The position numbers and the translations under genes were made by a program. Positions 1 through 62,028 of a stretch of DNA of 64,000 bases are shown here, one piece after another (positions within the stretch are counted from its first letter, which is position 1; each line of letters opens with the position of its first letter). The notes below the pieces were generated by a model. It saw only the letters and a program-made list of their open reading frames with translations. It was not told where the DNA came from and ran no database searches. The DNA is from Henckelia pumila (Eukaryota; Streptophyta; Magnoliopsida; Lamiales; Gesneriaceae), in assembly GCF_033568475.1 (NCBI RefSeq), contig NC_133123.1, positions 128,498,930-128,562,929 on the forward strand, given 5' to 3'.

Positions 1-545
1 CAATCGATCATCCTTATCCAATAACATTTAATTCAAAATTAATTTATTGGATAACATGCAATGGCAATTTAAATTTAAAAAGATAAAATCATATCTCATA
101 CATAAAATCTTATTTTACATATAAAATCATATTTTATCTTTTTATCAAATAAAATCATATTTTATCTATAAAATCCAATTTTATACATAAAATCATATTT
201 TACTCAATATATCCATAAGATCATATCTTATCATCAATTGTACCAAAAATAATTAATTTCAAAATTCAATTAAAGGATAAAATATTAAAATTTTCCAAAA
301 ATTCAAATTTATCCAAAAATCAATTTTAAAATTTTCGGACTCGAACAATTCGATCCGACGCCTCGTGGACCAATCAAAACAATTTTCGATCGGACCAAAA
401 ATAGAATTTTAACATATTAAAATTTAATTTAAAAAATTAAAAATAATTTTTCCCGCGGGCCGCCCGGGACGTTCCCGGGCCGGGCAGCCCGGCTGCCCCT
501 AGGGCAGCGCCGAGCGCTGCGCAGGGCAGCGCCGTGCACTGCCCG

Positions 546-566
546 GGGCAGCGACCATCGCTGCCC
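546..566. other. Perfect 9-bp GC-rich hairpin in the LTR-element leader, copy 1
   Basis: The stem is GGGCAGCGA paired with TCGCTGCCC around the three-base loop CCA. The same stem with loop CAA is found at 3504-3524 in the other copy. The loop differs while the stem is identical, which fits selection on a folded RNA leader, although shared recent descent would also explain it. Confidence 0.6.
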
Positions 567-682
567 GGGTTTTTGCCCGAAAAAAAAAATTTTATTTTAA
601 ATATTTATTTTGTTTCAAAAACCGAGGCCTAAAAAAAAAATTTTGTACAATCGATTAATTTAATCGCTTGATCTGAGCAATC

Positions 683-696
683 TGGCTCTGATACCA
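683..696 (-). other. Primer-binding site for initiator tRNA-Met, copy 1
   Basis: Read on the minus strand this is TGGTATCAGAGCCA, the complement of the plant initiator tRNA-Met 3' end. It lies one base inside the LTR end (...CCAACA). It fixes the element as minus-strand and the LTR at 698-2536 as a 5' LTR. Confidence 0.85.
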
Positions 697-697
697 C

Positions 698-2536: not shown

Positions 2537-3077
2537 TAAACAATATTTAAAATTCCTTTTGTTTATCTTGATATCAATTTTAAATCATATTTAAAATAAG
2601 GGATTTTATTTTGAAAATTTGTCTCATCATGCAATTTATGTATGCTTGCGGGATTCATACAATTTTGTCTAAACATGCATACATCAGTAATATCATATAT
2701 TATTTAAGGATGATCGATCACATTAACTAATCGACCCGTGGTTGCCAATCACGAGTCTAAGTACAATCCTAGGTGATATGTAAGTATGCAATGAAATCCT
2801 ATTACATTGTGCTTTCAATTTACATTTCTTCGGTCTTCATTGTCTGCTGGGCCCACCATTTCTTCAAATCTTTGTCTCCCACTAAGTCTAATAAATTTAC
2901 AATAAATTTCGATGACAAATATGGGATACATTTTAGGGGTGGGAACGGGCCATAAACCAGGCCCACTTTTATTACATATGACAATCATATTGGGCTATAA
3001 ACCAAGCCCATTAATAAACACCAACAACAATAAGACAAATGTAAATCACCTAACATACACCTAAAACATTGGTCATG
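2537..3077. repeat. DNA between the two LTR copies
   Basis: No gene is seen here. This AT-rich segment has no counterpart after the second LTR. It holds a minus-strand purine-rich stretch at about 2875-2886 (AGTGGGAGACAAAG) that resembles a copia polypurine tract, but this does not touch an LTR end. The segment is either more internal DNA of the right-hand element, with copy 1 inserted into it, or the internal part of one small element with an LTR on each side. Confidence 0.4.
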
Positions 3078-3503
3078 GCAATCGATCATCCTTTTATCCA
3101 ATAATTAATTCAATAATTAAAATAATTGGATAAACATGCAATGACATCATAATTAAAAGATAAAATCTTATTTTATCTTATCCATCTATAAGATCATATT
3201 TTATCATCAATTGTACCAAAATAATTAATTTTATAAAATCTAATTTAACGGATAAAATTTATAAATTTTCCAAAAATTCAAATTTATCCAAAAATCAATT
3301 TTAAAAATTTCGGACTCGAACAATTCGATCCGATGTCTCATGATCTAATCAAAAACAATTTTCGATCGGATCAAACACTAGAATTTCAAAAATTTAAAAT
3401 TTTTTCAAAAATTAAAATTTTAATTTTCCGGGCTGCCCGGGACAATCTCGGGCAGCCCGTGCCCCGACCAGGGCTCGGGCTGGGCAGCCCGTCGCTGCCC
3501 ATT

Positions 3504-3524
3504 GGGCAGCGACAATCGCTGCCC
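3504..3524. other. Perfect 9-bp GC-rich hairpin in the LTR-element leader, copy 2
   Basis: The stem is GGGCAGCGA/TCGCTGCCC with loop CAA, the counterpart of 546-566. On the minus strand it lies about 120 bases downstream of the primer site. Retroelement leaders often carry packaging or dimerisation structures in this region, but that role is only an inference here. Confidence 0.6.
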
Positions 3525-3642
3525 TTGGCTGCCCGTGTTTTGCCCGTCAAAAATTTAATTTTAAAAAATTTGTTTTGTTTCAAAAACCGAGGCTTAAAAA
3601 TTTTGTACAATCGATTAATTTAATCGTTTGATCTGAGCAACC

Positions 3643-3656
3643 TGGCTCTGATACCA
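3643..3656 (-). other. Primer-binding site for initiator tRNA-Met, copy 2
   Basis: This is the same TGGTATCAGAGC-type site as in copy 1, on the minus strand, one base from the LTR end at 3658. Confidence 0.85.
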
Positions 3657-3657
3657 C

Positions 3658-5542
3658 TGTTGGAAAATGATGTTCAGATCAATTAGAATTGATACCCGGT
3701 GCAGCGAAAGTTTAAAAAATTTATTTTATTAATATGGAACGATTCCATATCTGGGTATCAAAACTTTACGATTAAATTTGTGTAAGTAAAACAAATAATC
3801 ACTATTAAATATTTTACCTTTGTCAAGCAAAAGCTTGATTGTGGACTCCAACAGAATTTAATCTGCTCTTCTTGTAAATCCCGGGAACTGATGGCGTCAC
3901 GATCTTTCTCCGGAATTAGGTCCACGAATGGAAAACAGAAACCCTCTGATTGACTGCACTAGAAATCAATCAGAAGTTTGCGTAGAGAATAAACAGATAT
4001 GATCTGTTAATTCAGAATTGTAATTTTTCACAAAAGTCACAAGACTGAATTTTCTCCGAAAAGGGACAAGGATTTTCGAAAAACCCTTAGAAAATAATAT
4101 GTGTGTTTTCGAAAATTTGATGAATGAATTGCACGTAATTTTCGAACCCTGCACATATATTTATAGATAATTTCTAGTTATAATTGTATCAGGACTCTAA
4201 CTCCTTAAAGCCCACAATCCATAACTTAAGCCCAACAAGCCAATCCTGTTGTTATAGAAATTAATATAAAATTCATCGTGACTCTGATTGATAAACTGAT
4301 TTCACCAATGTGCACAGAAACCATTTGTGCATCTTTTAGAGTCAAGATAATTTTTCTGAATCCGAATTCAGTGATTTCCAAAAATGCCCATCCCTATGTC
4401 ATTTTAGGAAATCTCACTCCCTTTAGTTAAGAAGTCCAACTTCTCTTTCATTAAATTTAACTCTTTAAATTTAACTATCTCTACGGGGTTTTAGTAATCC
4501 ATTACTTGTGTAACCCTCAATGGTTCAGGAATACAATTAGCCGTGGGCTCACAACTCCTTGTGACTCGGAACAACAATTTCCTACTTACCCATCGAATCA
4601 TGGTAAGAGCGCCTAGCAACATCGCCCCATGATTCCCTAGGTATTACTGATAGTGCCTGCAAAAACCAGTAGATTTTGGTTAGCGTACAGTACGGTCCCT
4701 TCATCCATATATCCCGATCGAATCAACAACCATTGGTGCATCGAGAGTCGTTCGAGATTCGATAACTATGCATAACATCTTGGAGATCAAATAGTGACAT
4801 CGCATGTGTTACTAGGATAACCCATTAACCTAAAACACATCATGTACTCTGGCCAGAGATTCGTCACACTAATATCTCCTCATATCGCATAGGATATCCA
4901 CACTCGCAAGTATGTGGTGAATCCTTGACAACAAAGCATCGACTCCTATATGTGTCGTAACTGTACCCAATCCCGACACCTGATGACCCCAATAGAGTCG
5001 GTAAACGAGTCAAAGTACAGTACTAGCATATAGAGTCTCAATGATGTTTCAAGTAATAAGGACTAATGGTGTACAACCAAAACCGCGGACTTTATCCACT
5101 CGATAAGTGATAACCACTTGAAAAGTCCGAATAGGGTAGTTCGATCATTCATCATATGAATATCCATTTGCATGCTTTGAACATCTCTATGTTCCATACC
5201 AATGAAACGTGGTACTCGGCATCGCAAATGCTAGTCTCAATCTCGAGCGATCCTTATCCTATTTGCGGACGGCTCAATTGACTAGGAACCGTTTAGAATA
5301 TACAGTGACTATAAGATGTGTTTCATGATAGCCATCCCCATGTGCTACCACATCTTACATACACTATAGTATATTCAAGGTCTTTATCAAAACAACAATA
5401 GCATATCATAATATAACAATATGAAGAAAGATAAAGTCAATGCCATTATAAAAGTGTAAATTATATTAAACAAAAGATTATTTTACATAGAGTCATAAAA
5501 GCCCTTAGCCACAAGTTGGCTAACCAGGCACCCACTCTTTCA
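3658..5542 (-). repeat. Long terminal repeat, non-coding LTR family, copy 2
   Basis: This is the homologue of 698-2536, 1885 bp against 1839 bp. It ends in TTTCA at 5542, and the next base begins LINE coding sequence (endonuclease domain). The element therefore inserted into the LINE, or the LINE 5' part was lost. The matching target-site copy would lie left of the window, so the insertion cannot be proved from this sequence. Confidence 0.8.
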
Positions 5543-7202
5543 CTACATGGGTCTGGGGATCTTTTTACCTGGGTTAATAGACGTTCTCAATCAGAAATTA
5601 TCTTTGAGCGTCTTGACCGGTATGTTGCATCATTTGCTTGGAGAATGTTATACCCGACAGCTCGAGCTATGTCCTTGGAGTTTTATCATTCAGATCATCG
5701 TCCGATTGATCTATCTTTGGGGAATTTACAGAGCACTCACGTTCGTCGGGGTCATGTATTTCGGTTTGAACATCACTGGGCTACAGAAGAAGATTTTTTA
5801 GAGGTGGTGGAGAGAAGCTGGAATCCTGATCTTGGTAATTGCTCTGTGTCTGACCGAATTAAGAGTTGTAAGGATGGTCTTAGTAGTTGGGCTGGGGTCA
5901 GATTCCGTAATTTGGCAGGCAGAATTAAAGACTTGAGAAAGCAGTTAAATCATATTAAATCAAGCGCATTTTGGCAGGAGTCGGATCAGAAAATCAGGGA
6001 TTTAGAGAAAGAAATTGAAAATCTCTCAGTCAAGGATTAGTTGTATTGGTATCAACGCAGTAGAGTCAATTGGTTAGTTCATGGAGATCGTAATTCGAAA
6101 GCATTTCATCGTCATGCATCGGCCAGGAGGGCAAAAAATCATATTAGTGGGCTCGTTTCTACTCATGGTGACTGGTGTTCAAACCATATAGGTATGACTG
6201 AGATTATTATTGATTATTTTGATGAGCTTTTTAAATCTCAAGAACCTTCTGAGGAGAACATGCTACCGGTGTTGGAGTGTGTAGAACCAATTATAGACCA
6301 GTCCTTAAATTCCCATCTCTGTGCTCCTTTCACTGCTGATGAAGTTAAGAAGGCATTGTTTGATATGCATCCGGACAAAGCTCCTGGCCCAGATGGTATG
6401 TCTGCTTTATTTTTTCAAAAATACTGGAATGTGGTTGGTCGTGATATTTTCTGGAGCTGTGCTAAAAATTTTAAATAAAGGAGCTTCTTCTGAAGATTGG
6501 AATGAGACTATTGTTACTTTGATTCCAAAGATCAAAGTACCTCAAACCATTAAAGATTACAGGCCTATTAGTTTATGCAATGTCTGTCATAAGATTGTCT
6601 CAAGAACTCTGACTAATCGATTAAGGCATGTCCTCAAGAAAACCATGAATGAATTCCAGAGTGCTTTTATCCCAGGAAGATTGATATCTGATAATATTAT
6701 CTTGGGCTTTGAAACTCTTCATTGGATTCGAAGTAGAAAAACGGGGAGAAAAAGCTTTGCAGCTTTGAAACTAGATATGAGTAAGGCATATGACAGAGTG
6801 GAATGGAATTTCCTTGAGAAAATAATGTTTAAAATGGGTTTCTCTAATATCTGGGTTGAAAAAATTATGCAATGCGTGAGATCAGTAAAGTATGTGTTTT
6901 CTCTAAATGGATATTTAGTTGTTAATTTGATTCCAAGTGGAGGTTTGAGACAGGGAGATCCATTATCCCCGTACTTGTTTGTTCTCTGCGCTCATGGGCT
7001 TTCTAATTTTTTTATCAAACACGAAGCTAGAAATCTATTCTCTGGTGTGCGCATTGCTCGAACCTGCCCGTCAATTTCTCACCTATTTTTTGCAGATGAT
7101 AGCCTTGTTTTCTTTAATGCCACGGTTGAAGGATGTTTAGGCATTCAAAATTGTCTTTCATTGTATGAACGAGCTTCTGGTCAGTTGATTTATTTCGCTA
7201 AA
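5543..7202 (+). pseudogene. LINE (plant L1 type) ORF2 remnant: endonuclease end and reverse transcriptase
   Basis: Non-LTR retrotransposon ORF2, broken in several places. The C-terminal part of the endonuclease comes first (FTW..., then SDHRPI, the catalytic SDH motif). A spacer follows, then the reverse transcriptase: KAPGPDG, DYRPISL, LDMSKAYDRVEW (motif A aspartate), GLRQGDPLSP and FADD (motif C). There is an in-frame TAG at 6038-6040. A frame change near 6430-6460 splits the RT: upstream residues read in one frame and 'LKILNKG' onward in another. The frame is then cut at 7202 by an LTR element and resumes at 14074. The N-terminal endonuclease is missing to the left. The copy is dead. Confidence 0.9.
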
Positions 7203-8621
7203 TATAGCGACCCAACCCGGATCTACTATCTAATCAGAGTTAGGAGCATAAATGAACATGCATTAAAGAAATTACTGCGGAAGACTTAAATAAAAGCAGA
7301 CCGGCAGAATACAACCGGTTAAATAAATTCGATTATACAACCCAATCGAATAACTAAGTCTAAAGGCAAAACCTACAGCTAAATCCTGCTGTCTTCACTG
7401 GTCACTGGCTACTCCAAGCTCCTGGTGCCCAACCATGCACCTACAACTGCCCCGTCGAATGGGGTGTCCAGACATACAGAAACACTGGACGTGAGCTCTA
7501 AGCTCAATACGAAAGCAATGATATATATATATTATATGCAACACATAAGTGACTTTAAAAATCAGGGTTAAATCACTTTCTCTGGGCGCCTGGAATACAC
7601 AGTACCGGGCTAGAGAGCGACTCCGCGTGGTACTCGTATATTCCCAAGACACGAATCCTCAGGAAGAATCGCCTCGACTGATGGAAACTGTCATGACTCA
7701 CATCATCCCGATGCAGTCTCCGTAAAAACATATGCATGTGCTAAAGCCGTAAAACATGGTAAAACATATAGCACATACTCATGCAACACATATAATATAT
7801 ATCATGCTGGCCATCTCAGTCAGTACTAACGTACCTCACTACAGGCAAATCCTAGCAGTCCCACTCTAGGTTCCAAGCCTATCATCAACTCTACAATGCA
7901 AATATCCATGCATCATTCAATAAGCTCTAAAAGCCTTAACTAAGCTATTGCATACTTCTAAATAATTTAAGGAGACCATAGCTATACCTGCGTCCGTCGT
8001 CAATCCACTGATGGCAACTATCCCGCAACTAGGGGCACACCCCTGCTGCAGCTCCACAGCTTCGAGCACTGCTCCGCTACACGAGCACTGCCCCGCTACT
8101 ATGTCAGACACTGTCTGACTATACTAAAATATATTTCCTACTCCAACTCTAAAATAAGAGTACCCAAAGCCCTAAATAGAGCTACTGGGGCGAAGGGGAG
8201 GAATTCGGAATTGCAAGAAATGAGGAGCTCGGACCCTATATTTATAGACGTCGATCGGAAGTTCCATTCCTCGATCGGACGTTCCGTTCCGGCAGATCGA
8301 AAGCTCCGTTCCTCGATCGGACGCTCCGTTCGCCACATGTCAATTCGGTCCACATGCAACCACACACCTGTCACCGACAGCCATCGGAAGCTCCGTTCTT
8401 GATCGGACGTTCCGATCGTCGATCGGACGCTCCGATCCTAGATCGTTGCTTCCGATCCCACTCGAGTCTTGGAACCCTCTAAACCAATTTCGAGTGTCCT
8501 GGATCCATTTTTGGGCTCCGTTAATCCTCCTAGAATTTCTTTAATCATGTTTTACTTAATCCAAACATGATTACATGATTAATTACTCATTAATCGTTAA
8601 TCACGGATACGGGTCACTACA
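7203..8621 (-). repeat. 3' LTR of the non-autonomous gypsy-type element
   Basis: It runs from TATAGCGACCC to GGGTCACTACA. The first base pair of the canonical TG end has mutated to TA, while the other LTR keeps TG. It contains a GATCGGA-type tandem array at about 8248-8456, and beside it on the minus strand a TATA-like CTATAAATATAGG at about 8230-8243. The array therefore lies in U3 just upstream of the probable promoter. Confidence 0.9.
8248..8456. repeat. Tandem GATCGGA-type repeat array in LTR U3 (3' LTR)
   Basis: About eight degenerate units of roughly 20-22 bp of the form GATCGGACGYTCCGTTCC. Several units are themselves near-palindromic (GATCGG/CCGATC). The same array is in the other LTR at about 13697-13904. 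It sits directly upstream of the TATA-like box on the minus strand, which is where retroelement enhancer repeats usually lie. Confidence 0.7.
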
Positions 8622-8634
8622 TTCTCCCCCCCTT
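8622..8634 (-). other. Polypurine tract
   Basis: On the minus strand this reads AAGGGGGGGAGAA and abuts the LTR start (TGTAGTGACCC). It is the plus-strand priming site in reverse transcription and fixes the element's orientation. Confidence 0.9.
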
Positions 8635-8659
8635 AAAAGATTTCGTCCTCGAAATCTAA
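8633..8659 (-). pseudogene. Fossil C-terminus of a gypsy polyprotein
   Basis: The minus strand reads L-D-F-E-D-E-I-F-stop, with the TAA overlapping the polypurine tract. Tekay-type chromovirus polyproteins commonly end with an acidic FEDE-like tail just before this tract. Upstream on the minus strand the resemblance is lost. This suggests descent from an autonomous gypsy element whose coding region was replaced. The assignment rests on nine codons. Confidence 0.4.
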
Positions 8660-11600
8660 GGTAAAACCTCGAGAACATATAAAAGACCCTTGCTTGAGTG
8701 CCTGGTCGAAATAGCTTCCGACATACTCAGACTCTTGTCGAATTATATGCAAACTGCATAAATGCTAAATCACAATAGCATTCTCCGAGTTGGAAACCAC
8801 TGCATTACTTGATGACAATTAACCTCGCTTGACACTAACGTGCCACAGCACTGATACGTCCTTCGTCACAATCATGATCTTACTGATCACGAAGGATACA
8901 ACACTCCACTTGATCAAGATTATCATCCCAAGTAAAATCTAAAATTGACTAAGACCAAGTCATAACCTGACTGGCTTACGATATTCGTCGAATCACTAAA
9001 CAATTCTAACCATCCACTGGTCCCCAAAAGTTCTCAATTCCCAACACCTCTAGTTAGGAAACACTAATCCCAACACTGTGCTGACACAACAAATCTCTAA
9101 TTCTCTTCAAGAGAATCTAATTGACACAGGGTCATACTGCAATATAACTACTTAACATGATTTCATAGACTGATTATCCTCCCCATGCCTCACCGAAGCA
9201 AAACAGCTTCCCAAGGGCAACACTGGGAACTATCCAGTCTAATACCAATCACCGTTCATGTTTCTTAGTATACCTCAGCACCCTGCTATGATGAAAACAT
9301 CATCACTCACCAATAATGACGCTACGTCATTTCTAGCCTCTGATGATCAACATCATCTCAATCATAGGTTATTCACCCATGAATTCCATCGATGGACCTC
9401 CCCCGATAGTTATATATACTCGCAATCACTGTATACAAATCAAAACTAAGGCAAGCTCCCACCAATATGCTCGAGTGGGACATTCCACAGTACACAGACA
9501 TATGGAAACGCTTCCTATACCGTCTCAAAACTCGACAGTTGTAAGTGCCTGGTATAACTCAACTTGGAGTCTTTGATGATACCATCATCGCATACCAACC
9601 TCCCAAGGTTAATCACACTGATCCTGGGACTAAATCCCAATGGATTCTCAATAGTCAAACAGCTTCCCTTGCTGAACTCATCAGCCTCAGCAATGAAAAA
9701 ACTAATTTGTCGATTCCCTAGCCGATCCTGGGAAACACTTGTGCTTAGAGTAGTGTGTCACATATAACACCTCCAACTATTGTCTACTGCTGCAACGTAA
9801 TATCTTCGACAAGCAGTCTGCACGGATGTGACTTACTAACTTGAAAGAACAAAGTCGCTGCATCGCTGTCTTGCAAAGTCTTCAATTCCCACAAAAATCT
9901 TGTTGACCACTAAGTCGATCAACGACTGCTTCGATCGTCTCAATGATCTTACGCACCATATGCTAAAAATTAGTGACACCCCCTGCTGGATCTCAAGAAC
10001 TAAGTCCCAGCTAATGTCACACCTCACGATCATACAACTGATGTCCATATAAGTGTCCAATCCTAGTTGGATCCCAAACTCCAATGGTACACTTAAGACC
10101 TCATCATAAAAGCACTTAAGCGACAAAGTACTATCCCAAGCATTTCTCGATTGCTACATCCAATTCATCGCTGATTGGACTTACTCATCAACCTCGTCGA
10201 TTTGCTGATTGATACTCACACTTATCAAATCAGATAACCACTGATCGTCAACACCTAAGTGGCTCGATCAATTACTCTTGACTCAACTGATCCAAGTCTA
10301 CTATTCCAAACATTGGATTACACAAAAACTCTCTGGTTACAACAAACCCGCGCTTGGTAACCGAAACATAGCTATTAGTAATCCAATGACACAATCTCGT
10401 GTCTTATTACTGACAGCTATCTTGTACACTGACTTAATCAATCTAACTCTGACAAAGTTAATCATTAACCACTAGTAGTCATTAGCACAAATCTTGTGCC
10501 GTCTCAGCACTACTACTCGTTTGTCTTGTTCACTCGAGATGATCATCAAGACAAACCAAGTTCAAGATCTTCTCGCGATCTTATCAACTTAGACCATTTC
10601 CATCTCAGGAAAAATCCTACGCTCAACCTCCGAAATATCATACAGTTCTTGGCGCAATCACTGGACTCATTATTCTTGCCTCGTTCTTTCAAGATGGACA
10701 TCACGATTCGTCAAGTCCAAGAAGCATAACTAATGAATACCAAATATCTTCACAATCTTCGAACATGCTCCGGATTCAGATCCCTTGCTAAGACTGTACG
10801 ACAATTCAAGACTTAGGGTAGCTTACCTCGATAACCCACCTGGACAACCACCAAGGCTTCACGGGTATAGGCCATGCTTCCCTCAGATCTCAATAATCTT
10901 TGTACAATACTTATCATATGATCCAACACTTGATGAAATCAATCATCATGAAGTAATTCTTGTATTCGAGTCGAAGTCTCGAAACTGCATCCCATCCTGG
11001 ATCTCGGATAATTCTTATCTCAAGGAAACTTTATCCACAACTCTGATGACAACCACAAGTCATTGTTGGTAGAATTCCATCCACCTACTAGATCCCCACG
11101 TCTAGCAGTAATCATCGGTCAAAAATTAAATCTATCTGCTCAGAGCACACACTTGTCAAGGAAATCCCTCCAAGACTAGTTCCTATAGCAGAACACTATC
11201 ACTGATATCTCTGACACATCAGACGATATCGAACCATCAATATCAAACCTGTGATATCTAATCCAAGGTCATACCCTGTTGTGACTACTGCCAAATCCCT
11301 AGACTGAGTAGCCTTCCCACCGCCATCTCCTGAAGCACAAAAGGCTCCCAGGTAATCCTCTGAAGTGCAAAGACTCCCAGAGTAACACTGGCATAGGGTC
11401 GCGCCCCATCACGTCTAGTCATGATCATAGTCCACAACTCTTGGTATATACTCGACCTGGCATCCTGATGAAATCCCATCATCGCAAGTCTCAACCTAAC
11501 AAAGGTCAGACAGTCTACTGTCCTAAGAAAACAAACTAGAACAAAATCCAATGTCCGAAAACGAACAATATTCCCATGCCTCTAGATGAGTCCACCCATC

Positions 11601-12629
11601 GCTGGCACTATCTTAGTCCACTGACTAACTAGGTCAATCCTAGGAAAACACCTAGACTAACCGCAAGTCAACAATCACCGTTGGCCCTACTCAAATCCCA
11701 TGAGTCACCACAGTTGAACACTAATCAACTAGGATCAATGCTAAACTTAGCAAAACATGCAATCATCCACGAATTGCTAGATTAATAAAAACATGTATCA
11801 TTACTTCAAGTTATGTACAATTTCTTGATTACAATCCCTATGTAATACAATTACAGTATTCCGAAAATACAAAATGTACAATCAATAACTTGAATGATAC
11901 AACCGAATCTGATGATTTATTACAACTGAAACACTGTTTACAACTACAACAATACAGTATTTAAATCATCGTACTAGTCTTCGTTCCTTGAGCATGAAGC
12001 TTCTAATCAACATACGCATCGATACAAGCATACTCCCGTCCAAGTCTCTCTACATGTCCTCCCGCAAAAAACTCCGGAGAAATGGCACGTGTTAGCTAAC
12101 CAGCTATGCTCTGCGTCAGTGCATGTCAATTGACCTCTTATGCTCACGATCTACCGTCAGCTTTCTTCTTGTAACTAAATCATGCTTTTGAACATGAAGT
12201 TTCCCGTACGCGTACCAAAAGCATCGATATACGCACACCGGCAAAACCATGTTCTGCATGAGTTTAAATGACAATCTCTCCAACTACGAGTGGAGAATCT
12301 CTTCGGACTGGAACCACATGGGTTATTACACACCATTCGTTCCAAAAAGCCCTCAGAGATATCTGACGTGATATTCTCTTTCTTCACTCCCAGTCTTTTC
12401 CTGCTGGAATCCATATGTTCTTTGATCAGCATCCCAATGCATCAAATGATGAACTGTAGTCAGCATATTCATGCTACTACCGGTGTTCTCATCACTGTTG
12501 CCTTCCTTATAGCGAAGACTTATGCCGCAAACCTTGGCAATGAAGAACCAAATAATCCTTAGGTCTCACCAATCCTACAAGGATAATCCAAAGTCTCAGT
12601 ACTATATCCCAAGTCTCTTGCATGTATAT
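8660..12629. other. Internal domain without recognisable genes (non-autonomous element)
   Basis: About 4 kb in which both strands hold only short scattered open frames (at most about 96 codons). None shows retroelement motifs such as a zinc knuckle, DTG protease, YxDD or a DDE integrase. The plus strand is visibly C-rich and G-poor. This matches the pattern of large non-autonomous derivatives, where the body is kept for RNA packaging length and not for protein. Confidence 0.6.
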
Positions 12630-12641
12630 GCTCTGATACCA
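12630..12641 (-). other. Primer-binding site for initiator tRNA-Met
   Basis: The minus strand reads TGGTATCAGAGC, five bases inside the 5' LTR end. That spacing is common in plant gypsy elements. Confidence 0.9.
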
Positions 12642-12646
12642 ATGAA

Positions 12647-14068
12647 TGTAGCGACCCAACCCGGATCCACTACCTAATCAGAGTTAGGAGCATAAATGAA
12701 CATGCATTAAAGAAATTACTGTGGAAGACTTAAATAAAAGCAGACCGACAGAATACAACCGGTTAAATAAATTCGATTATACAACCCAATCGAATAACTA
12801 AGTCTAAAGGCAAAACCTACAGCTAAATCCTGTTGTCTTCACTGGTCACTGGCTACTCCAAGCTCCTGGTGCCCAACCATGCACCTACAACTGCCCCGTC
12901 GAATGGGGTGTCCAGACATACAGAAACACTGGACGTGAGCTCTAAGCTCAATACGAAAGCAATGATATATATATATATTATATGCAACACATAAGTGACT
13001 TTAAAAATCAGGGTTAAATCACTTTCTCTGGGCGCCTGGAATACACAGTACCGGGCTAGAGAGCGACTCCGCATGGTACTCGTATATTCCCAAGACACGA
13101 ATCCTCAGGAAGAATCGCCTCGACTGATGGAAACTATCATGACTCACATCATCCCGATGCAGTCTCCGTAAAAACATATGCATGTGCTAAAGCCGTAAAA
13201 CATGGTAAAACATATAGCACATACTCATGCAACAAATATAATATATATCATGCTGGTCATCTCAGTCAGTACTAACGTACCTCACTACAGGCAAATCCTA
13301 GCAGTCCCACTCTAGGTTTCAAGCCTATCATCAACTCTACAATGCAAATATCCATGCATCATTCAATAAGCTCTAAAAGCCTTAATTAAGCTATTGCATA
13401 CTCCTAAATAATTTAAGGAGACCATAGCTATACCTGAGTCCGTCGTCAGCCCACTGATGGCGACTATCCCGCAACTAGGGGCACACCCCTGCTGCAGCTC
13501 CACAGCTTCGAGCACTGCTCCGCTACACGAGCATTGTCCCGCTACTATGTCAGACATTTTCTGACTATACTAAAATATATTTCCTACTCCAACTCTAAAA
13601 TAAGAGTACCCAAAGCCCTAAATAGAGCTACTGGGGCGAAGGAGAGGAATTCGGAATTGGCAAGAAATGAGGAGCTCGGACCCTATATTTATAGACGTCG
13701 ATCGGAAGTTCCGTTCCTCGATCGGACGTTCCGTTCCGGCAGATCGGAAGCTTTGTTCCTCGATCGGACGCTCCGTTCGCCACGTGTCAATTCGGTCCAC
13801 ATGCAACCACACACCTGTCACCGACAGCCATCGGAAGCTCCGTTCTTGATCGGACGTTCCGATCGTCGATCGGACGCTCCGATCCTAGATCGTTGCTTCC
13901 GATCCCACTCGAGTCTTGGAACCCTCTAAACCAATTTCGAGTGTCCTGGATCCATTTTTGGGCTCCGTTAATCCTCCTAAAATTTCCTTAATCATGTTTT
14001 ACTTAACCCAAACATGATTACATGATTAATTACTCATTAATCGTTAATCACAGATACGGGTCACTACA
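12647..14068 (-). repeat. 5' LTR of the non-autonomous gypsy-type element
   Basis: It runs from TGTAGCGACCC to GGGTCACTACA, 1422 bp, and is near-identical to 7203-8621. It repeats the GATCGGA array (about 13697-13904) and the TATA-like box next to it. Scattered substitutions and a short TA-repeat length change separate the two LTRs. Confidence 0.9.
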
Positions 14069-14073
14069 CTAAA

Positions 14074-16000
14074 TCCTCTCTATCTTTCAGTCCTAAAGTG
14101 AATGCAGATCTTGCGAATCAGATCAAATCAATTCTTTCAATCCAGATTGTGCAAGGTCATGATGTATATTTGGGTCTACCAACATTCTCGGTTAGAGGTA
14201 AGAAACTTCAATTTCGATATCTTGTGGAGAGGGTTATCAAAAAGTTGCAAGGGTGGGGTACAAAAGCTTATTCTTTGGGTGGAAAGGAAATTCTTATCAA
14301 GTCTGTGTTGCAATCAATCCCAAACTATGCTATGTCGTGTTTCCGTATTCCGAATTCGGTCTGCAAGGAGATTGAACGTGAGTGTGCTAATTTTTGGTGG
14401 GGCACTAACGATGGAAAAAAGAAAATTCACTGGCAGTCTTGGAAAAAATTAAGCACACCAAAATGTTTGGGTGGAATGGGGTTTCGTAGAATGGTGCCTT
14501 TTAATAAAGCTCTTTTAGCCAAGCAGATATGGAGGATTATTGAAGAGCCACAATCGCTGGTAAGTCGAGTCTTGAAAGAAAGATATTTTAGACACCAAGA
14601 TATAATGGATGCACAACTCGGTAGTAATCCTTCCTTTATTTGGCGCTCAATGATGTGGAGTCGATCCCTACTTGAGAAAGGAATTAGATGGCGTGTTGGA
14701 AAAAGGCGAGAGTATTAAAATCTACCAGGATCGTTGGGTTCCTAGATTGAGAGATCGAATTCCAGAACCAAGTGGTCAAGATCGTCTTGCCACTGTTAAT
14801 CAACTCATGTTAGATGGAAATTGGAATAGATCGCTGATAACATCTTTATTTGATACTAATACTGCTCAAGAAATTATCAATATCCCACTGATTTATTCTT
14901 CACAGGTGGATTTGCGGTATTGGAACTCGGATATCAAAGGTAAATTCTCGGTTCGTGAAGGTTACAAAGTTGAGATTGAAGCTTATGAACCCCCACGAAA
15001 TTGCTCTGATTATTTCTTGAGAAAGTGGTGGAATTTCATTTGGAGTTTGTCTATACCTCCTAAAGCTAGAATTTTCTGGTGGAGAACAATGCAAAATATT
15101 ATTCCAACTTCTAAGAATTTAATATCACATCATGTGCCTATGGTTGAATTTTGTCCTCTTTGTAAATCTGGGAATGATTCTACTGAACACGCGTTGCTAT
15201 GGTGTTCAAAAATTAAGAGTTGTTGGAAAGAGACTCCATTCTGGCCCGTTTTGAAGATGATAAGGCATTTAGGGATTATAGACATTTTTATGTGCTTGAA
15301 AGAATCAGTGGACAGAGCAGATTTGGAGGTATTTATTATGAGAGCTTGGGCTATTTGGCTTGATAGAAACAGGATCGCTCATGACAAGGAGAGATTGAAT
15401 GATATTGTTTCGGCTTATAAGGGAGGGATCTTACTTGAAGAACATCGTAAAGCATCTACGGCAATGCTCAATTTCCGCAATGATAGTGTACTGGGTAATA
15501 ATTCTCGCTGGACTGCGCCACCTCCCCTATGGCTAAGACTCGATGTGGATGCGGTTTATAATATTGATTCAAATAACTTTGCAATTGGTGGGCTGTTTCG
15601 TGATACTGAGGGTAAGATTGTTGTTGCTTTTGGAAAGAAAATTAAAAAACCCCAATCAGTGGTGTATGCTGAATTGATTGCAATAAGGGAGGGGTTGCTT
15701 CTGGCTAAGGATCGAAGATATGGGCTTCTTCAAGTTTATTCTGATTTTCTTCTAGCGGTGCGAGCAGTCACTTGTCCGAAGGATGATCGTAGCTATATTG
15801 GAGCTATCGCTACAGATATTTCTTCTTTGCTCGGGTGTTTTCAAGATGCGAAAGTTTTTCATGTTCGTCCATCATTGAACATGGTTGCTCATTCTATTGC
15901 GCATTTTTCTTTTCCTTCCCAAAATCTTACGATTTGGGAGTATGGAACTTTTCCGGTTTGGTTGGTAGATCTTGTAATTAAACAACTTCATCGTGATTAA
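14074..16000 (+). pseudogene. LINE ORF2 remnant: RT end, zinc-binding domain and RNase H
   Basis: Continuation of the LINE after the LTR insertion. It begins with the RT thumb region (GLPTF...KLQF, LGGKEILIKSVLQ), then a zf-RVT-type region (PPKARIFWW..., CPLC, EHALLWC), then an RNase H-like domain (LDVDA, AELIAIREGL, YSD) running to the stop at 15998-16000. One extra A in the A-run near 14700-14705 shifts the frame: the first frame ends at 14718 and the second covers 14672-16000. A C-terminal RNase H is typical of one group of plant L1 elements. Confidence 0.9.
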
Positions 16001-42125: not shown

Positions 42126-42130
42126 AGACC

Positions 42131-43134
42131 TGTTAGTAGGTTGTATTCTGAATTCTGAAAACTTCAATGTCGGAAGCAATCAACAGCAATGAAAATGATC
42201 AACACAGTCGAGGCGAAAGAAACTCTCTATTCGCAAGACGAAATTGCCTGTTCCAAGTGCTAAACGTTAGCGGCAATCGTCTCTAAGATACAACGACTTT
42301 CGATCGTGATATAGCAGCACTGCAAATATCACGAACTTCAACGAACGAAAATATGCTTTAATTTTTCTTTTGAGAAAGTGAGGGAGAGATTTTGAGAAAT
42401 CTGAAATCTGAAATCTACGTTATCAGATGTTTCTGTGTTTGTTTTCTGTGTTATAACCACCATATATATAGTCTTATACACGAAACAACACGTCTGAAGG
42501 CGTAAGGATGCAACCCATGACAGAAAAATGCCAGAAACAGTTGTGACTGTTCATTCTGCAGAAGGTGCGCTCGGGCGGTAATTTTCTACCGCGCGAGCGC
42601 CCAACTTTAAGCCAACACATTGCCTCGCCATTTTGGTACCGCGCCCGCGCGGCAATTTTTTACCGCTCGGGCGCAAGCCGTTTTGAACTCACTGTCTCGC
42701 ATGTGCGGTGCTGCGCCCGCGCGGTAATATTTTACCGCTCGGGCCTACTCCATAAAATAATAAAATATTATTTTAAATAAATTTTATTCAAAAAGAATAA
42801 TCAGATCAGAAGACCAGACCTCACCACGCCGAGCCGAGCCGGCCGCGCGCGTGTGTGTTTGTTGCATCGACTAGCGTCTTGCCCCTTTACAAAACATCCG
42901 GTGCCCTAAGGGCCCAATCCCATAGTCCAATGTTGGACTAATTAAGGTGAACAACAAATTGGAGTTGTTCCAATGTGGGACTACCATTTCCCCATTTCCT
43001 TCCAATTTATTTCACCAAAATTTTGAATTTTGTAATACTTTGGACAAGGCTTTTACAAACAATTTGGGTTAATCAATTCAAACCCTTTCAAGCCCATTTC
43101 AATTGTAATTCATTCAATAATACAATTTCCAACA
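42131..43134 (-). repeat. 3' LTR of the copia element
   Basis: 1004 bp, minus strand TGTTGG...CTAACA. It contains three GC-rich imperfect hairpins (about 42565-42745), a TATA-like CTATATATATGG on the minus strand (about 42463-42475), a stem-loop at 42305-42333 and the segment 42231-42245 that is complementary to the leader. Confidence 0.93.
42565..42745. repeat. GC-rich hairpin triplet in copia LTR
   Basis: Three spaced units of the form GCGCtCGGGCGGTAA-TTTT-TTACCGC-cgagCGC at about 42565-42600, 42635-42674 and 42710-42745. Each is an inverted repeat around an AT core. All lie upstream (minus strand) of the TATA-like box. The other LTR repeats them at about 48045-48225. Confidence 0.75.
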
Positions 43135-43143
43135 ATCCCCCAC
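43135..43143 (-). other. Polypurine tract of the copia element
   Basis: The minus strand reads GTGGGGGAT and abuts the LTR start TGTTGG. Confidence 0.85.
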
Positions 43144-43671: not shown

Positions 43672-46600
43672 TTATTTTGTGGATTTTAAACCCATTCCTC
43701 CAAGTAGTTTGTACATTTGATCTCTATTTATACTTTTTGTAAGCGGATCCGCAAGGTTTTCCTTTGACTTCACATAGTCAACCGAAATAACCCCATTCGA
43801 GATCAATTGTCTTATGGTATTATGTCTCCGACGAATATGTCGAGATTTACCATTGTACATACTACTTTGTGCTCTTCCCATTGCTGATTGACTGTCACAA
43901 TGAATCGTAATGGAAGACACCGGTTTATTCCAACATGGAATATCTTCGAGAAAGTTTCGAAGCCACTCGGCTTCTTCTCCAGCTTTATCTAGAGCAATAA
44001 ACTCGGACTCTATAGTCGACCGAGCTATACAAGTTTGTTTAGAGGATCTCCATGACACCGCTCCTCCACCGATAGTGAACACATATCCACTCGTAGACTT
44101 GGAGTCTTTTGTGTCAGAAATCCAATTTGCATCACAATATCCTTCTAGGACCGCAGGATATTTTGTATACACGAGTCCATAACTCAAAGTGTATTTCAAA
44201 TATCCAAGCACTCTCATTAGTGCTTTCCAATGATCCTTACTTGGATTACTTGTGAATCGACTTAGCTTATTTACGGTATATGCAAGATCAGGACGGGTAC
44301 AGTTAGTTAAATACATCAAACTTCCTATCACCCTTGCATATTCCACTTGTGAAACAGGTTCTCCTCTATTTTTGGCTAAATGTGTATCCAATTCCATAGG
44401 TGTTCTAGCCGTAGGATGATTTGTGGCATTAAATCGTTCAAGAACCTTTTCTACATAATGAGTTTGGGATAACATAATTCCAGCAGGAAGTCTAGAAACT
44501 TTAATCCCTAGAATTATATCACACAATCCCAAATCCTTCATATCAAAATGTTGTCTCAACATTTTCTTGGTTTTCACAATCAATTCATGGTTGCTACCCA
44601 TGATTAACATGTCATCTACATAAAGACAAACAATTACATATGCATTTGTAGTACCTTTAATGTAGACACATTTATCACATTCATTTATTATGAAACCATT
44701 TGACAACATTGCAGTGTCAAACTTTTGATGCCACTGTTTAGGTGCTTGTTTAAGTCCATACAATGACTTGACAAGTTTACACACCTTTTGTTCTTTCCCG
44801 GGTACAACAAACCTTTCTGGTTGTTTTATATATATTTCTTCATCCAATTCTCCGTTCAAAAACGCAGTTTTAACATCCATTTGATGAATCTCAAGATCAT
44901 GCAATGCTGCAATAGCTATGAGAACACGAATGGATGTTATTCTAGAAACCGGAGAGTAGGTATCGAAGAAATCATATCCCTCTTTTTGTCTAAAACCTTG
45001 AACCACGAGTCGAGCTTTATATTTATCTATAGATCCATCTTTTTTGTATTTCCTTTTAAGAATCCACTTGGATCCTAAAGGTTTACATCCCGGAGGGAGA
45101 TCAACCAACTCCCATGTATGATTATGCATTATGGAATCTATTTCATTTTGTATGGCTTCCTTTCAAAAAGGAGCCTCAGGATTTGATAAAGCCTCTTGAA
45201 GAGTTCTTGGTTCATTATCTAACATGTATGTTAGAAAATCAGGACCAAACGATTTTTCAACTCTTGCACGCTTGCTGCGTCGTGGTTCCACGTTGTTTTG
45301 TGAAGTTTCAATTGTGTTTTCATGAGTTCGCTTGTTCGAACTTATTTCTTTCTTGTCTTTACATGGAAAGATATTTTCAAAGAATACAACATTCCTTGAC
45401 TCCATAATTGTGCCTTCATGTATATCAGGATTCGTTGACTTATGCACTAAGAATCGGTATGCACTACTATTGTATGCATAACCAATAAATATGCAGTCAA
45501 CCATTTTAGACCCAATTTTTATTTTTTTTGGCTTAGGTACTTCTACTTTCGCCAAACACCCCCACACTTTGAGGTATTGGTAAGAAGGTTTACGACCTTT
45601 CCACTGTTCATATGGTGTTTCGTCTTTTCCTTTGATTGGAATCCGGTTTAGAATGTGTGTTGCTGAGAGAATCGCTTCACCCCACATATTTTGAGGTAAG
45701 CCAGAATTTATTAGCAACGCGTTCATCATTTCCTTTAATGTTCGATTTTTGCGTTCTGCAACGCCATTGGATTGAGGTGAGTAAGGGGCCGTCGTTTGAT
45801 GAATGATGCCCGAAGTTGAGCAAAATTCTTCAAAAGGAGCCACATACTCTCCACCTCGATCACTTCGAATCATTTTAATTTTTGAACTTCGTTGATTTTC
45901 AATCTCAGTTTTATATTTCTTGAAAGCGTCGATCGCTTCATCTTTGCTTTTCAATAAATATACATAACAAAATCTGGTGCAATCATCAATGAATGTTATA
46001 AAGTACTTATTTCCACCTCGTGTTTGTACCATTTTTAAATCACATACATCAGTATGTATTAATTCAAGTGGCGTAGTACTTCTCGTGACATTATGAAATG
46101 GAGCTTTAACCATTTTCGCTTCAACACATATCTCACACTTGTTTTGTGGATTTCTTTTAAACATAGGTATTACATTTAAATTTGCAAGTCTTTGCAACGT
46201 GTTGAAGTTAACATGTCCTAATCGTTCATGCCATATATCATAACTTTCAGTCAATTAAGCAGAACCAATAACTTTATTCTTCGCCTCAAGGCGGGAAACA
46301 TTCATTACATTTAACTTAAAGAGACCACTATCTTGGTACCCTTTCCCAACAAATACACCAGATTTAGTTAACACAAATTTATCAGATTCAAATACCATTC
46401 TAAATCCAGTCTTGCTCAAGAGTGAACCAGAAACTAAGTTCTTCCGAATGTCTGGCACATGCAGCACATTTTTGAGCGTCACCTCTTTGCCAGAGGTCAT
46501 CTTCAACACCACATTTCCCACTCCCACAACTTCAGACGTTGCGGAGTTTCCCATGAACAACTTTTGATCCCCAACGATGGCATAGGTGGAATACATGTCT

Positions 46601-47577
46601 TTCTCGGCACACACGTGACTCGTAGAGCCGGTATCGATCCACCATCCTCTTGGATCATCCACCATGTTGGTCTCACATATAACAGCACTAAGATCAATAT
46701 CAGAAAGTGCTAAAGGTACATACCTTTCTTGAACCATGTTCACTTGCCTTGGTTTTTTATTTTTGTTATTTTTCTTTGGAAGTTGGCAGTCCCTTGCCAT
46801 ATGATTCGGTTTGCCACAGTTGTAGCAACTTCCTTGGAATTTCTTCGCTTTTCCCTTTTGCTTTTCATCATGGGGGCGCTTCCTCTTTTGACTGGTACTA
46901 GACTCCGCCAGATTTGCTTTGGCCTCGGTTTCCATCAGCTTTTTATGTGACTTGGCCTCGGTATTTCTGTTGTCCTCCTCGATGCGAAGCCTCACAATGA
47001 GATCTTCAAGTTTCAACTCCTTACGTTTGTGCTTAAGGTAGTTTTTGAAGTCTTTCCACAGTGGAGACAATTTCTCAATGATAGACGCGACTTGGAATGG
47101 TTCATTGATTTCCATTCCTTCGGCCAATAAGTCATGCAAGATGATTTGTATCTCTTGCATTTGACTCATTACAGTTTTTGAGTCTACCATCTTGAAGTCC
47201 AGAAATTTGCCAACTACAAACTTCTTTATGTCGGCATCTTCAGTTTTGTACTTCTTTTCCAAAGAATCTCATAATTTCTTGGCCGTCTTCACAGAGGAGT
47301 AGACACTATAGAGAGTGTCGTCGAGGCCATTCAGAATATAATTCATGCAGAGAAAATCGCTGTGGTTCCATGCATCTATTGTTGTCCTTATTTGTGTGTC
47401 AGAATCGCCTTCAACGACGACGGGGGGATCCTCCTTGAGAAATCTAGACAGATTAAGGGTGGTCAGATAGAACAGCATCTTCTGCTGCCAACGTTTGAAG
47501 TTGGCACCAGAAAACTTTGGCGGCTTTTCTCCATGAGCGGGGACGGAAGCGAGCGGAGTGAATGAAACGGTAGACAT
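43672..47577 (-). pseudogene. Copia gag-pol polyprotein with three in-frame stops
   Basis: A single frame of 1302 codons read from MSTVSFTPLAS. Gag comes first with the zinc knuckle [14 protein letters not shown]. Protease follows ([12 protein letters not shown]), then integrase (HERLGHVN...CEIC zinc part; [14 protein letters not shown] and the [13 protein letters not shown] region), RT (YVDDMLIMG) and RNase H ([21 protein letters not shown]). Stops: TGA at 47269-47271, TAA at 46255-46257, TGA at 45163-45165. Both TGA codons stand where the family has tryptophan, fitting G-to-A change of TGG. No frameshift was seen. The element is defective but nearly intact and could be mobilised by a relative. 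Confidence 0.93.
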
Positions 47578-47601: not shown

Positions 47602-47617
47602 AATTTCGTCTTGCGAT
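47602..47617 (-). other. Unusual primer-binding position, self-complementary to the LTR
   Basis: Directly after the 5' LTR the minus strand reads A-TCGCAAGACGAAATT, with no tRNA-Met site. These 15 bases are the exact reverse complement of 15 bases inside the 3' LTR (42231-42245) and of 14 in the 5' LTR (47719-47732). Such a match at this position recalls Tf1-type self-priming. The mechanism is inferred only. Confidence 0.6.
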
Positions 47618-48614
47618 TGTTAGTAGGTTGTATTCTGAATTCTGAAAACTTCAATGTCGGAAGCAATCAACAGCAACGAAAATGATCAACACAGTCGAGG
47701 CGAGAGAAACTCTCTATCCGCAAGACGAAATTGCCCGTTTCAAGTGCTAAACGTTAGCGGCAATCGTCTCTAAGATACAACGACTTTCGATCGTGATATA
47801 GCAGCACTGCAAATATCACGAACTTCAACGAACGAAAATATGCTTTAACTTTTCTTTTGAGAAAGTAAGGGAGAGATTTTGAGAAATCTGAAATCTACGT
47901 TATCAGATGTTTCTGTGTTTGTTTTCTGTGTTATAACCACCATACATATAGTCTTATACACGAAACAACACGTCTGAAGGCGTAAGGATGCAACCCATGA
48001 CAGAAAAATGCCAGAAACAGTCGTGACTGTTCATTCTGCAGAAGGTGCGCTCGGGCGGTAATTTTCTACCGCGCGAGCGCCCAACTTTAAGCCAACACAT
48101 TGCCTCGCCATTTTGGTACCGCGCCCGCGCGGCAATTTTTTACCGCTCGGGCGCAAGCCGTTTTGAACTCACTATCTCGCATGTGCGATGCTGCGCCCGC
48201 GCGGTAATATTTTACCGCTCGGGCCTACTCCATAAAATAATAAAATATTATTTTAAATAAATTTTATTCAAAAAGAATAATCAGATCAGAAGACCAGACC
48301 TCACCACGCCGAGCCGAGCCGGCCGCGCGCGTGTGTGTTTGTTGCATCGACTAGCGTCTTGCCCCTTTACAAAACATCCGGTGCCCTAAGGGCCCAATCC
48401 CATAGTCCAATGTTGGACTAATTAAGGTGAACAACAAATTAGAGTTGTTCCAATGTGGGACTACCATTTCCCCATTTCCCTCCAATTTATTTCACCAAAA
48501 TTTTGAATTTTGTAATACTTTGGACAAGGCTTTTACAAACAATTTGGGTTAATCAATTCAAACCCTTTCAAGCCCATTTTAATTGTAATTCATTTAATAA
48601 TACAATTTCCAACA
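47618..48614 (-). repeat. 5' LTR of the copia element
   Basis: 997 bp, near-identical to 42131-43134. Its TATA-like box differs by one base (CTATATGTATGG on the minus strand). The stem-loop CGTGATAT...ATATCACG is at 47792-47820, and the segment complementary to the leader is at 47719-47732. Confidence 0.93.
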
Positions 48615-48619
48615 AGACC

Positions 48620-59936: not shown

Positions 59937-62028
59937 TGTAACGCCCCGTTTTTATCTTAAATGAGTTTATTTGAGTTAATCAGAGATTACAGAGTTCTCG
60001 AGCCGGTTTGATTTTGATCAGGGTTCTTTTTGCAAATTTTGGAAATTTCAGGAACTAAAATGCAAATAGGGGATTTAATATATTATCTACACTTGATTTT
60101 TTATTTCACAAGTCACCTCCTTCCTCCTCCCAACCGTGAGCCTCCATTGAAGACGCCTCTTGGAGCTTTTGAGCTTTCAAAATCCAGTCCGAGCTCGATC
60201 CGTCCGTTAGAAATTAATTCTGAAGGCAGATTAGCGATCACTGCTGCGAGAGCTTCGTTCTATCGTAAGTTCTTCTCCGATCCGATACATTCTAGTTTTT
60301 GGATGTTGTTAGAATCGTTCTAGATTCGAGTATGTTGTTCTCTACAGAGTTCTGATAGTTTATTATCTGTCGGTTTTGAATTAGAGCGACGTTCGGAATT
60401 GTTATGATTTTTGGAAGTATTATTCGAAAATGTGGGTTTTGAGATTTGTTGGGTTTGTCTTGTTGTTGTGGTTTTAGCATTGAATTGAGTAGATATCAGT
60501 ATTGAACTGCTGTCTGCGTTGCTGGTTTGTTCAGTTTATAGCCGTTATGCCGTTGGTTTGAGTTTTGAGGGTTTCGAACCGTTTTTGAGTTGTTAAACGT
60601 GGCTTGTAAGTTGGTCTTTGTTGTTGATCAATCTCTTGTATCTGAACAGATTCGTTGGAGTGTTTCGAGCCCTGTGTTAGCAGCATTGTTCGTCGAGAGT
60701 TGGACGAAGAACGGTAAAGAGATTTCCTTGAACCGTTGTTTGTTGTTGAGGTTGTCTAGTTGTTGATACAATCTCTTTTGTAGCTTATCCAGAGTTGGAG
60801 CTACTGCATTGAGAGGTAAAAGCAGTCATCGTAGCGGGATAGCATACTCGGGACTGTTGGTTCTCGAGTTTCCCTTTTTAAATCACATATTGCATTGATA
60901 CTTGTTCTAGCACGTGGAACTCGTAATTGTTGATTGATTGGGTTTTGTTTTGTGGCTTATGTTTATGTTTCTGTTATGCATTCATCTTGAGCCTACTTTG
61001 ATTTCAGCGGGCAGAACCGCCCTTTTTGTTAGACGTTTGGGAACTATGATTGAGTGGCCTATGTCGTAGTATTTCGCCTAGTGCTAGCATACTCGTTATG
61101 GTTGCTCAAAGTCTAGAGGAGTGGGATACGTGGCACCACCTCGATTGGGAGAGTCGGTGAGTCGTTACGTGATCTCATCCTCGGGATCCCAAAAGCAGAG
61201 CAATACTCCCGTGTTTATCAGAATCGATATCCTGGTTTTAAAGACATGCATATCATTAACTTCGACTTGAATATGTGGTTTGATAGCATGTTGTATATCC
61301 ATTACTTGATATGTTGCTTTTACTGAGATTATCATTCTCACCGGTTATCCGGTTGTTGCTTTGTTTTGTATGTGTACTTGGCAACAGGTGGGGCAGGAAC
61401 AAGTCAGAAGAGGCATGGTTAGCTTCGAGGGCAAGTAGTAGAAGTGAGACTCGGTTTAGAAGTCGAATTAGCATGTTTATCTAGTTTAAGAATGAAGCAT
61501 GTTAGAACTCGAACTTGATATATGTTTTGTTATTCGAATTAGTTTGTATTCGGATTGTAATCTAAAATCGAAGTATGTTGTTGTTGTATCGATTTAGACT
61601 TCTGGTTGTTTTTAGGCCTTCTGAAAGCATGACTTGTTATGGCATGTTTCCCTACACCCTGTTATTGTAATTATATTTGAAGGCATGTCGGACCAAGCGC
61701 GGAATTCCCTTTTCTTTTTCTGAAGCCTGAGCATTTCTGCCCAGGCCTTCCGCGCGCGGGCGAGGCGTTCCTCGCGCGCGCGCGAGGCCTCCGTTGGGCC
61801 TCTGAAGGGTTTGCCCGCGCGCGCGCGAGCTTGGTGCCTCGCGCGGGCACGAGCCTTTGGTTGGTCTCGGAATCGTTTGACCGCGCGCGCGCGAGCTTGG
61901 TACCTCGCGCGGGCGCGGGTCTTTTAAAAAAAAAAAAAAAAAAACTTTTGAATTGTTTTATTCTTGGATTCTTGTTCGCTTACTTGTTGTTTAATCCGAG
62001 ATTAGTGGTTTAGAATCGAGGTCTCACA
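59937..62028 (+). repeat. 5' LTR of a Ty3/gypsy element
   Basis: It runs from TGTAACGCCCCG to GGTCTCACA, 2092 bp, and is followed by a primer site. The last 280 bases include a CpG-rich tract of GCGCGC-type inverted repeats (about 61749-61920) and a poly(A) run. The 3' LTR lies beyond the window, so the LTR is identified by ends and primer site alone. Confidence 0.8.
61749..61920. repeat. CpG-rich alternating GC repeat in gypsy LTR
   Basis: Repeated units such as GCCCGCGCGCGCGCGAGCTTGGTNCCTCGCGCGGGC, each an inverted repeat around a short spacer, at least three times. Alternating CG runs can form Z-DNA and are heavy methylation targets. Confidence 0.7.

Follow-up and report, generated by a model that had tools for sequence, protein, structure and literature searches.

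A Ty1/copia element of 6484 bp, located on the minus strand of the 64,000-nucleotide stretch of Henckelia pumila DNA analyzed here (the window), carries at the position of its primer-binding site a sequence complementary to a segment of its own long terminal repeat (LTR). The pairing recurs in three families of related copies, in which the leader site and the LTR segment change together, and the duplex ends at 14 pairs, most sharply in two of the three families. We consider that the element, which is probably a member of the TAR lineage of plant copia elements, uses its own RNA as the primer of minus-strand DNA synthesis, and from the comparison of sequences we assign this reading a probability of about 0.8. 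Judging from the copies compared, the leader-LTR pairing is real and functional-looking; it represents a known, predicted mechanism that here receives new comparative support.

Results

Structure of the copia element

On the minus strand, the 5' LTR (TG...CA, 997 bp) occupies positions 47618..48614 and the 3' LTR (1004 bp) positions 42131..43134, and the two are 97.8% identical over 1005 aligned positions in a BLAST alignment that overruns each TG end by one T. A 5-bp target-site duplication, GGTCT, was read directly on the upstream (48615..48619) and downstream (42126..42130) sides. A purine-rich tract, GTGGGGGAT, adjoins the 3' LTR at 43135..43143 (minus strand) and is the probable plus-strand primer. 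The gag-pol coding region (43672..47577, minus strand) is interrupted, and because it is broken into four reading frames, the window copy is probably non-autonomous. When the four pieces were scanned separately against Pfam, three gave matches (Retrotran_gag_2, 7.3e-12; gag_pre-integrs; rve, 4.2e-16; RVT_2, 1.3e-78), and the first piece, of 102 aa, gave none. The minus-strand domain order is gag, rve (45163-46254) and RVT_2 (43672-45129), with integrase preceding reverse transcriptase; by both the copia-type Pfam domains and this order, the element is a member of the Ty1/copia superfamily. A reverse transcriptase scan of viral_contigs returned zero relatives.

The window also holds other repeats. 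The U3 part of the copia LTRs contains two GC-rich 59-bp repeats 72 bp apart (48094-48224; 42614-42744), and a further GC-rich repeat, of 66 bp, is found at 61787-61918. A second LTR element, at 7202-14068, has an LTR pair that is 97.6% identical and an ordinary TGGTATCAGAGC site; it is flanked on both sides by CTAAA, a likely target duplication, and by eye it sits between LINE-type reverse transcriptase-like frames (6321-7289 and 14098-14718). Within window positions 1-5542, repeats lie approximately 3 kb apart, each with GGCTCTGATACCA (near 680 and near 3640), which is the complement of a tRNA-Met site.

Complementarity between the leader and the LTR

The leader between the LTR end and the ATG is 40 nt long. 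Read directly and by eye, these 40 nt contain no tRNA-Met site of the TGGTATCAGAGC kind, as the initial annotation had remarked, and no alternative primer site is visible in them. What they do contain is a 14-nt candidate primer-binding site, CGCAAGACGAAATT (47602..47615, minus strand), two bases inside the 5' LTR end; both LTRs contain its exact reverse complement, the 5' LTR at 47719-47732 and the 3' LTR at 42232-42245. The former stretch is the putative self-primer segment (47719..47732, minus strand; predicted 3' end at 47719), and the latter is its 3' LTR copy (42232..42245, minus strand). The longer 15-mer TCGCAAGACGAAATT, which begins one base past the 5' LTR end on the minus strand, pairs in full with the 3' LTR only, through an additional pair at 42231, because the 3' LTR has A there and the 5' LTR has G; the coordinates first reported, 42231-42245 for the 15-mer and 47719-47732 for 14 matching bases, were verified.

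The initial annotation judged such a match very unlikely to arise by chance, and the controls bear this out. Sites with at most two mismatches number four in the window against 0.22 expected. When 200 nt of the LTR of the window copy (L001) were shuffled 1000 times with dinucleotides preserved, no shuffle paired with 0-1 mismatches and six paired with two, and among 480 other internal 14-mers compared with the same LTR, none had fewer than two mismatches and four had two. A single control came from another LTR element of the window, whose tRNA-type site matches its own LTR with no fewer than five mismatches. When the shuffle test was applied to eight copies, an equally good match was reached by one shuffle in 1000 for L083 and for L087, and by one to four for the four copies with two mismatches.

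Recurrence and covariation in related copies

The comparison was confined to one genome, that of H. pumila, and the copies of the window element's own family are mutually non-independent. A search of the host genome with the leader and LTR end gave 816 candidate places, of which 40 were scored, and yielded copies of the same family; a second search, whose gag codon pattern excluded the codons of the window copy itself, returned 73 places, of which some belong to this family and others to more distant ones. Thirty-three of these 73 places were read as L061-L093, and the remaining 40 include at least two copies of family A (L027 and L052). Among the 93 loci in total (L001-L093), L031-L060 largely duplicate positions of L001-L030, and 55 copies were kept as distinct by the sequence around the gag anchor, those not kept including L018, L021, L029 and L062. 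Six copies were dropped from the 55: L019, L065 and L085, in which the site finder landed on the wrong spot (by eye, they differ from the family site at two, two and one bases, respectively); L070, which has no recognizable leader; L016, which has a deletion; and L071, in which the upstream part is replaced. The remaining 49 copies comprise 39 of family A, the family of the window element, six of family B and four of family C, these names being labels coined in this analysis. Counts on 48 copies (A, 39; B, 5; C, 4) omit L080, which has a deletion in the segment.

The three families have the same arrangement with different site letters, namely CGCAAGACGAAATT in A, CTTAAAACAGATTC in B and a CTTAAGAAGATTTT-like sequence in C. 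Across the 49 copies, 96.9% of the cells are paired, G-U included, between the leader site and the LTR segment of the same family, versus 67.7% between the leader site and the segment of another family, a figure that excludes comparisons within B. In single examples, the family A site forms 14/14 Watson-Crick pairs with its own segment versus 6-9 of 14 with B and C segments. Pairing partners were located by a best-match search, which is biased to good matches, and shuffle and cross-family controls were run. Double-sided changes are found at 9 of the 14 duplex positions (48 copies), and two lineages, represented by L030 of family A and L087 of family C, carry a compensated change at one shared duplex position. 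The neighbor of L030, L018, likewise has an altered LTR segment with a matching leader change, and L018 and L087 each also carry one uncompensated change. Single-sided changes are present as well, most of them at positions 5 and 6 (zero-based numbering), each of which is unpaired in 6/48 copies. Co-variation of the leader and LTR segments in related copies, which had been proposed as a check on the initial annotation, is thus observed.

L030 and L018, both with the altered LTR segment and the matching altered leader base, are 5508 bp apart (G000 C3, near 65.76 Mb) and resemble a tandem LTR-internal-LTR-internal array.

Boundaries and spacing of the duplex

In family A, the terminal pair at either end of the duplex is present in all 39 copies, and a pair one base further out in 2/39; in family C, three and four of the four copies pair at the two ends and none beyond. 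In family B, the side facing the LTR end is sharp (from 5/5 to 0/5) and the opposite side is not (from 3/5 to 2/5). The next, 15th position pairs in 2/39 A, 0/5 B and 0/4 C copies. The 15-base match first described is present in the 3' LTR of the window, but a conserved unit of 15 bases was rejected, the length kept across the 48 copies compared being 14 pairs. Among the 11 copies listed for spacing, segment and site are separated by a loop of 71 to 180 nt, and the duplex length is unchanged. At the level of sequence, a constant length combined with a variable distance is the trace to be expected if a primer is copied into the site of the next generation.

A predicted folded RNA domain around the segment

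The segment is located inside a stretch of approximately 100 nt bounded by a conserved UUGUAUC and a conserved GCCUC, and the copies compared suggest that the RNA around it is folded. The predicted domain occupies 47689..47788 in the 5' LTR and 42202..42301 in the 3' LTR (both minus strand) and comprises helices P0, P1 and P2. P0 is a 5-bp closing stem with its 5' arm at 47781..47785 and its 3' arm at 47693..47697 (minus strand). In P1, an upstream arm at 47759..47769 (minus strand) would pair with the primer segment while the site is unbound, giving 6-7 bp, a 2-nt bulge and 4-5 bp, and P2 is a 5-bp hairpin at 47702..47714 (minus strand), four bases beyond the primer segment.

The letters of P2 differ by family (GAGAG/CTCTC in A, CTGTG/CACAG in B1, TTGTA/TACAA in B2 and TCGTG/CACGA in C), and its arms pair in 95.9% of cells within families versus 40.7% across families. 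The corresponding values are 95.9% versus 76.6% for P1, a high cross-family value in a helix whose upstream arm was placed by best match, and 94.3% versus 68.2%, also high, for P0, which is weak in B1 (13/20 cells) and B2 (3/5). Single-sequence folds of 13 copies, inspected by eye, contain both P1 and P2 in eight (one of them with a partial P1), P1 only in L064, P2 only in L067, and neither in L083, L084 and L063.

When the nine B and C domain sequences were aligned on sequence alone, 88.3% of cells were paired versus 74.5% in shuffles (0/500 as high), 13/20 pairs showed a double-sided change (8/500 shuffles as high), slid controls paired at 38-48%, and RNAalifold recovered the same helices unaided. 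One of the five measures was contrary, with 23 pair types versus 25.5 in shuffles (488/500 as high). A model, R1, built from these nine sequences and containing none of family A, found both LTRs of the window, at 2.9e-11 for the 5' LTR and 7.4e-10 for the 3' LTR, with the next match at 0.08; these E values are rough, and sequence similarity contributes to them. R1 was also run on 53 sources, namely the window plus 52 of the 93 loci, nine of these sources being training sequences. It matched 51/53, or 42/44 outside training, those missing being L070 and L071. An alignment of all 54 matches (A3) was 95.2% paired versus 85.6%, with double-sided change in 16/20 pairs (0/500 shuffles); this alignment was fitted to R1, and its result leans towards the model. 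The structure is possibly a new RNA domain. Nothing in the window reaches the gathering score in Rfam, and seven weak matches around the LTR miss both the site and the domain.

Folding of the 356-nt leader region gives a stability within the ordinary range (z -0.98) and favors P1 over the leader duplex; in isolation, the energies are -14.3 kcal/mol for P1 and -19.5 kcal/mol for the leader duplex. The same fold contains a helix between the LTR end and the leader beyond the site, which we rejected as a general feature, since many shuffles equal it outside family A and L078/L087. Within 9-base runs, this helix has 8-9 pairs in 37/39 family A copies, nine in L078 and L087 (family C), eight in L063 and L083, and seven in the remaining B copies and L092.

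Individual loci show rearranged forms of the region. The LTR of L071 retains the primer segment and P2, but in place of the upstream part of the domain it has sequence similar to a portion of the repeat at 2475-2536 of the window. In L078 (1634-1737) and L028 (385-484), a second domain copy lies near the first in the opposite orientation.

Position of the promoter

In the window, approximately 220 nt separate the primer segment from a TATA-like box upstream of it, at 47951..47959 (minus strand), and a box 200-245 nt upstream is present in 39/48 copies (A, 35/39; B, 2/5; C, 2/4). The distance from a TATA box to the transcript start is usually approximately 30 nt, so that the window RNA would begin approximately 190 nt before the segment. 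Because the box is so far upstream in these 39 copies, the primer is probably not the 5' end of the RNA and would instead be excised from the interior of its 5' part. The objection to plain Tf1-style priming raised in the initial annotation, that such boxes place the transcript start well upstream of the complementary segment, is supported by this comparison.

Discussion

As a kind, self-priming is not new. In a survey of primer sites in 5410 Ty1/copia and 8453 Ty3/gypsy elements from plants, Neumann et al. 2019 (PMC6317226) predicted it for the TAR lineage of copia elements. That survey predicts self-priming for 12% of elements, naming TAR in Ty1/copia and Tcn1 in Ty3/gypsy, cites an earlier self-priming proposal for Houba and Osr-1 (Capy 2005), and gives tRNA-Met as the primer for most elements of the other copia groups and half-tRNAs for few. 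Because self-priming is predicted there for TAR and tRNA-Met for most elements elsewhere in copia, we consider that the window element probably belongs to the TAR lineage (REXdb; including rice Houba and Osr-1), with which it shares the trait of having no tRNA-Met site and a site complementary to its own LTR. Its size is similar to those of Houba (6437 bp with 968-bp LTRs) and Osr1 (6400 bp with 965-bp LTRs; PMC1940013), the window element measuring 6484 bp with LTRs of 997 and 1004 bp; a length of approximately 6.4 kb with LTRs near 1 kb is a trait taken from these two elements and is no formal TAR criterion. The likeness to known TAR elements is one of description and size. The portions retrieved with self-priming terms from the literature on self-priming retrotransposons, TAR, Houba, Osr1, Tf1 and U5-IR describe no folded domain or internal priming for TAR.

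Primer pairing in Tf1 extends over 11 nt, versus 14 nt here. A U5-IR-like structure is reportedly needed in a self-primed element of the Tf1/sushi type, according to the title of a 1998 report by Lin and Levin. In the Tf1/sushi elements Tf1 and Tj1, the element's RNA itself supplies the primer, as a 5' segment complementary to the primer site (Tj1: PMC4600332), and the window element is similar in that its site is complementary to its own RNA. The Tj1 site is the complement of the mRNA 5' end (PMC4600332), whereas the segment described here lies 200-245 nt downstream of a TATA-like box in 39/48 copies. Furthermore, the Tf1/sushi group belongs to the Ty3/gypsy superfamily, whereas the window element is copia-type by Pfam and domain order and its proteins are not of the gypsy type. 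The fungal GalEa copia elements, whose site forms a conserved hairpin, are likewise without a tRNA site at the primer position; unlike that of the window element, their site is a palindrome, and the authors report no U5 sequence complementary to it (PMC5445492).

The pairing might instead be a structural signal, acting in packaging, dimer formation, RNA circularization or translation control, with another RNA as the true primer. Long-range 5' pairings exist in retroviruses and Ty1, a leader-LTR pairing is also a plain RNA hairpin, and P1 prevails over the leader duplex when the leader region is folded, all of which would suit such a signal. We nevertheless consider it unlikely, because the duplex occupies the primer-site position in all three families, approximately 14 pairs are kept despite the varying loop in the 11 copies listed, and the 40-nt leader of the window offers by eye no other candidate site at which a different primer could anneal. 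Chance complementarity in one copy is a negligible alternative: short inverted matches are frequent in AT-rich DNA, and 4/480 other internal 14-mers reach two mismatches, but no shuffle in 1000 was as good for the window copy, and the arrangement recurs across families with double-sided changes.

It is also highly improbable that an unusual host RNA, such as a tRNA fragment or another small RNA, acts as the primer and that the LTR merely carries a copy of it, an alternative raised in the initial annotation. Half-tRNA primers are known in copia elements (PMC6317226), but the site varies among families A, B and C, each version matching its own LTR, and host RNAs would need to vary equally; an outside primer RNA is disfavored because site and LTR segment change together between families. 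The weak Rfam matches also miss the site, and ARAGORN, run with the bacterial code on the window, found no tRNA; within this window-wide scope, a host tRNA or known RNA was rejected as the primer. Priming by the element's own RNA, the Tf1/sushi-like reading that the initial annotation favored for a plant copia element, gains support from the between-family covariation, the 14-nt boundaries and the position of the duplex at the primer site.

If the element primes itself in this manner, transcription would begin downstream of the TATA box, approximately 190 nt ahead of the primer segment in the window, and hairpin P1 of the folded LTR domain (P0-P1-P2) would first hold the segment in the transcript. 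The segment would then form a 14-bp duplex with the leader site, two bases in from the end of the LTR, either on the same RNA or on the partner RNA of the particle. Since the naked 356-nt RNA prefers P1 at an unremarkable stability, this switch would need a chaperone or a second RNA. Cleavage of the RNA would follow where the segment ends on its 3' side, between P1 and P2, and the element's RNase H would probably carry it out, as happens in Tf1. The freed 3' end would copy U5 and part of R, after which the short cDNA would move to the 3' LTR. Plus-strand DNA would copy 14 nt of the primer, and the leader site would therefore be rewritten from the LTR segment in every cycle. An internal cut of this type would reconcile the far-upstream transcript start with self-priming.

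We give even odds to a broader proposal, namely that in self-primed plant copia elements a dedicated P0-P1-P2 domain locks an internal primer segment and presents its 3' end for cutting. The primer would then be inner LTR RNA approximately 200 nt from the 5' end, the site would be rewritten in each cycle, and the mechanism would constitute a variant distinct from that of Tf1.

The covariation found within one genome makes self-priming of plant copia elements testable, as it specifies a predicted primer end at 47719, a predicted duplex of 14 bp and a proposed fold. If the proposal holds, self-priming from an internal segment occurs in a lineage distant from Tf1, and the fold would serve as a signature by which such elements can be recognized.
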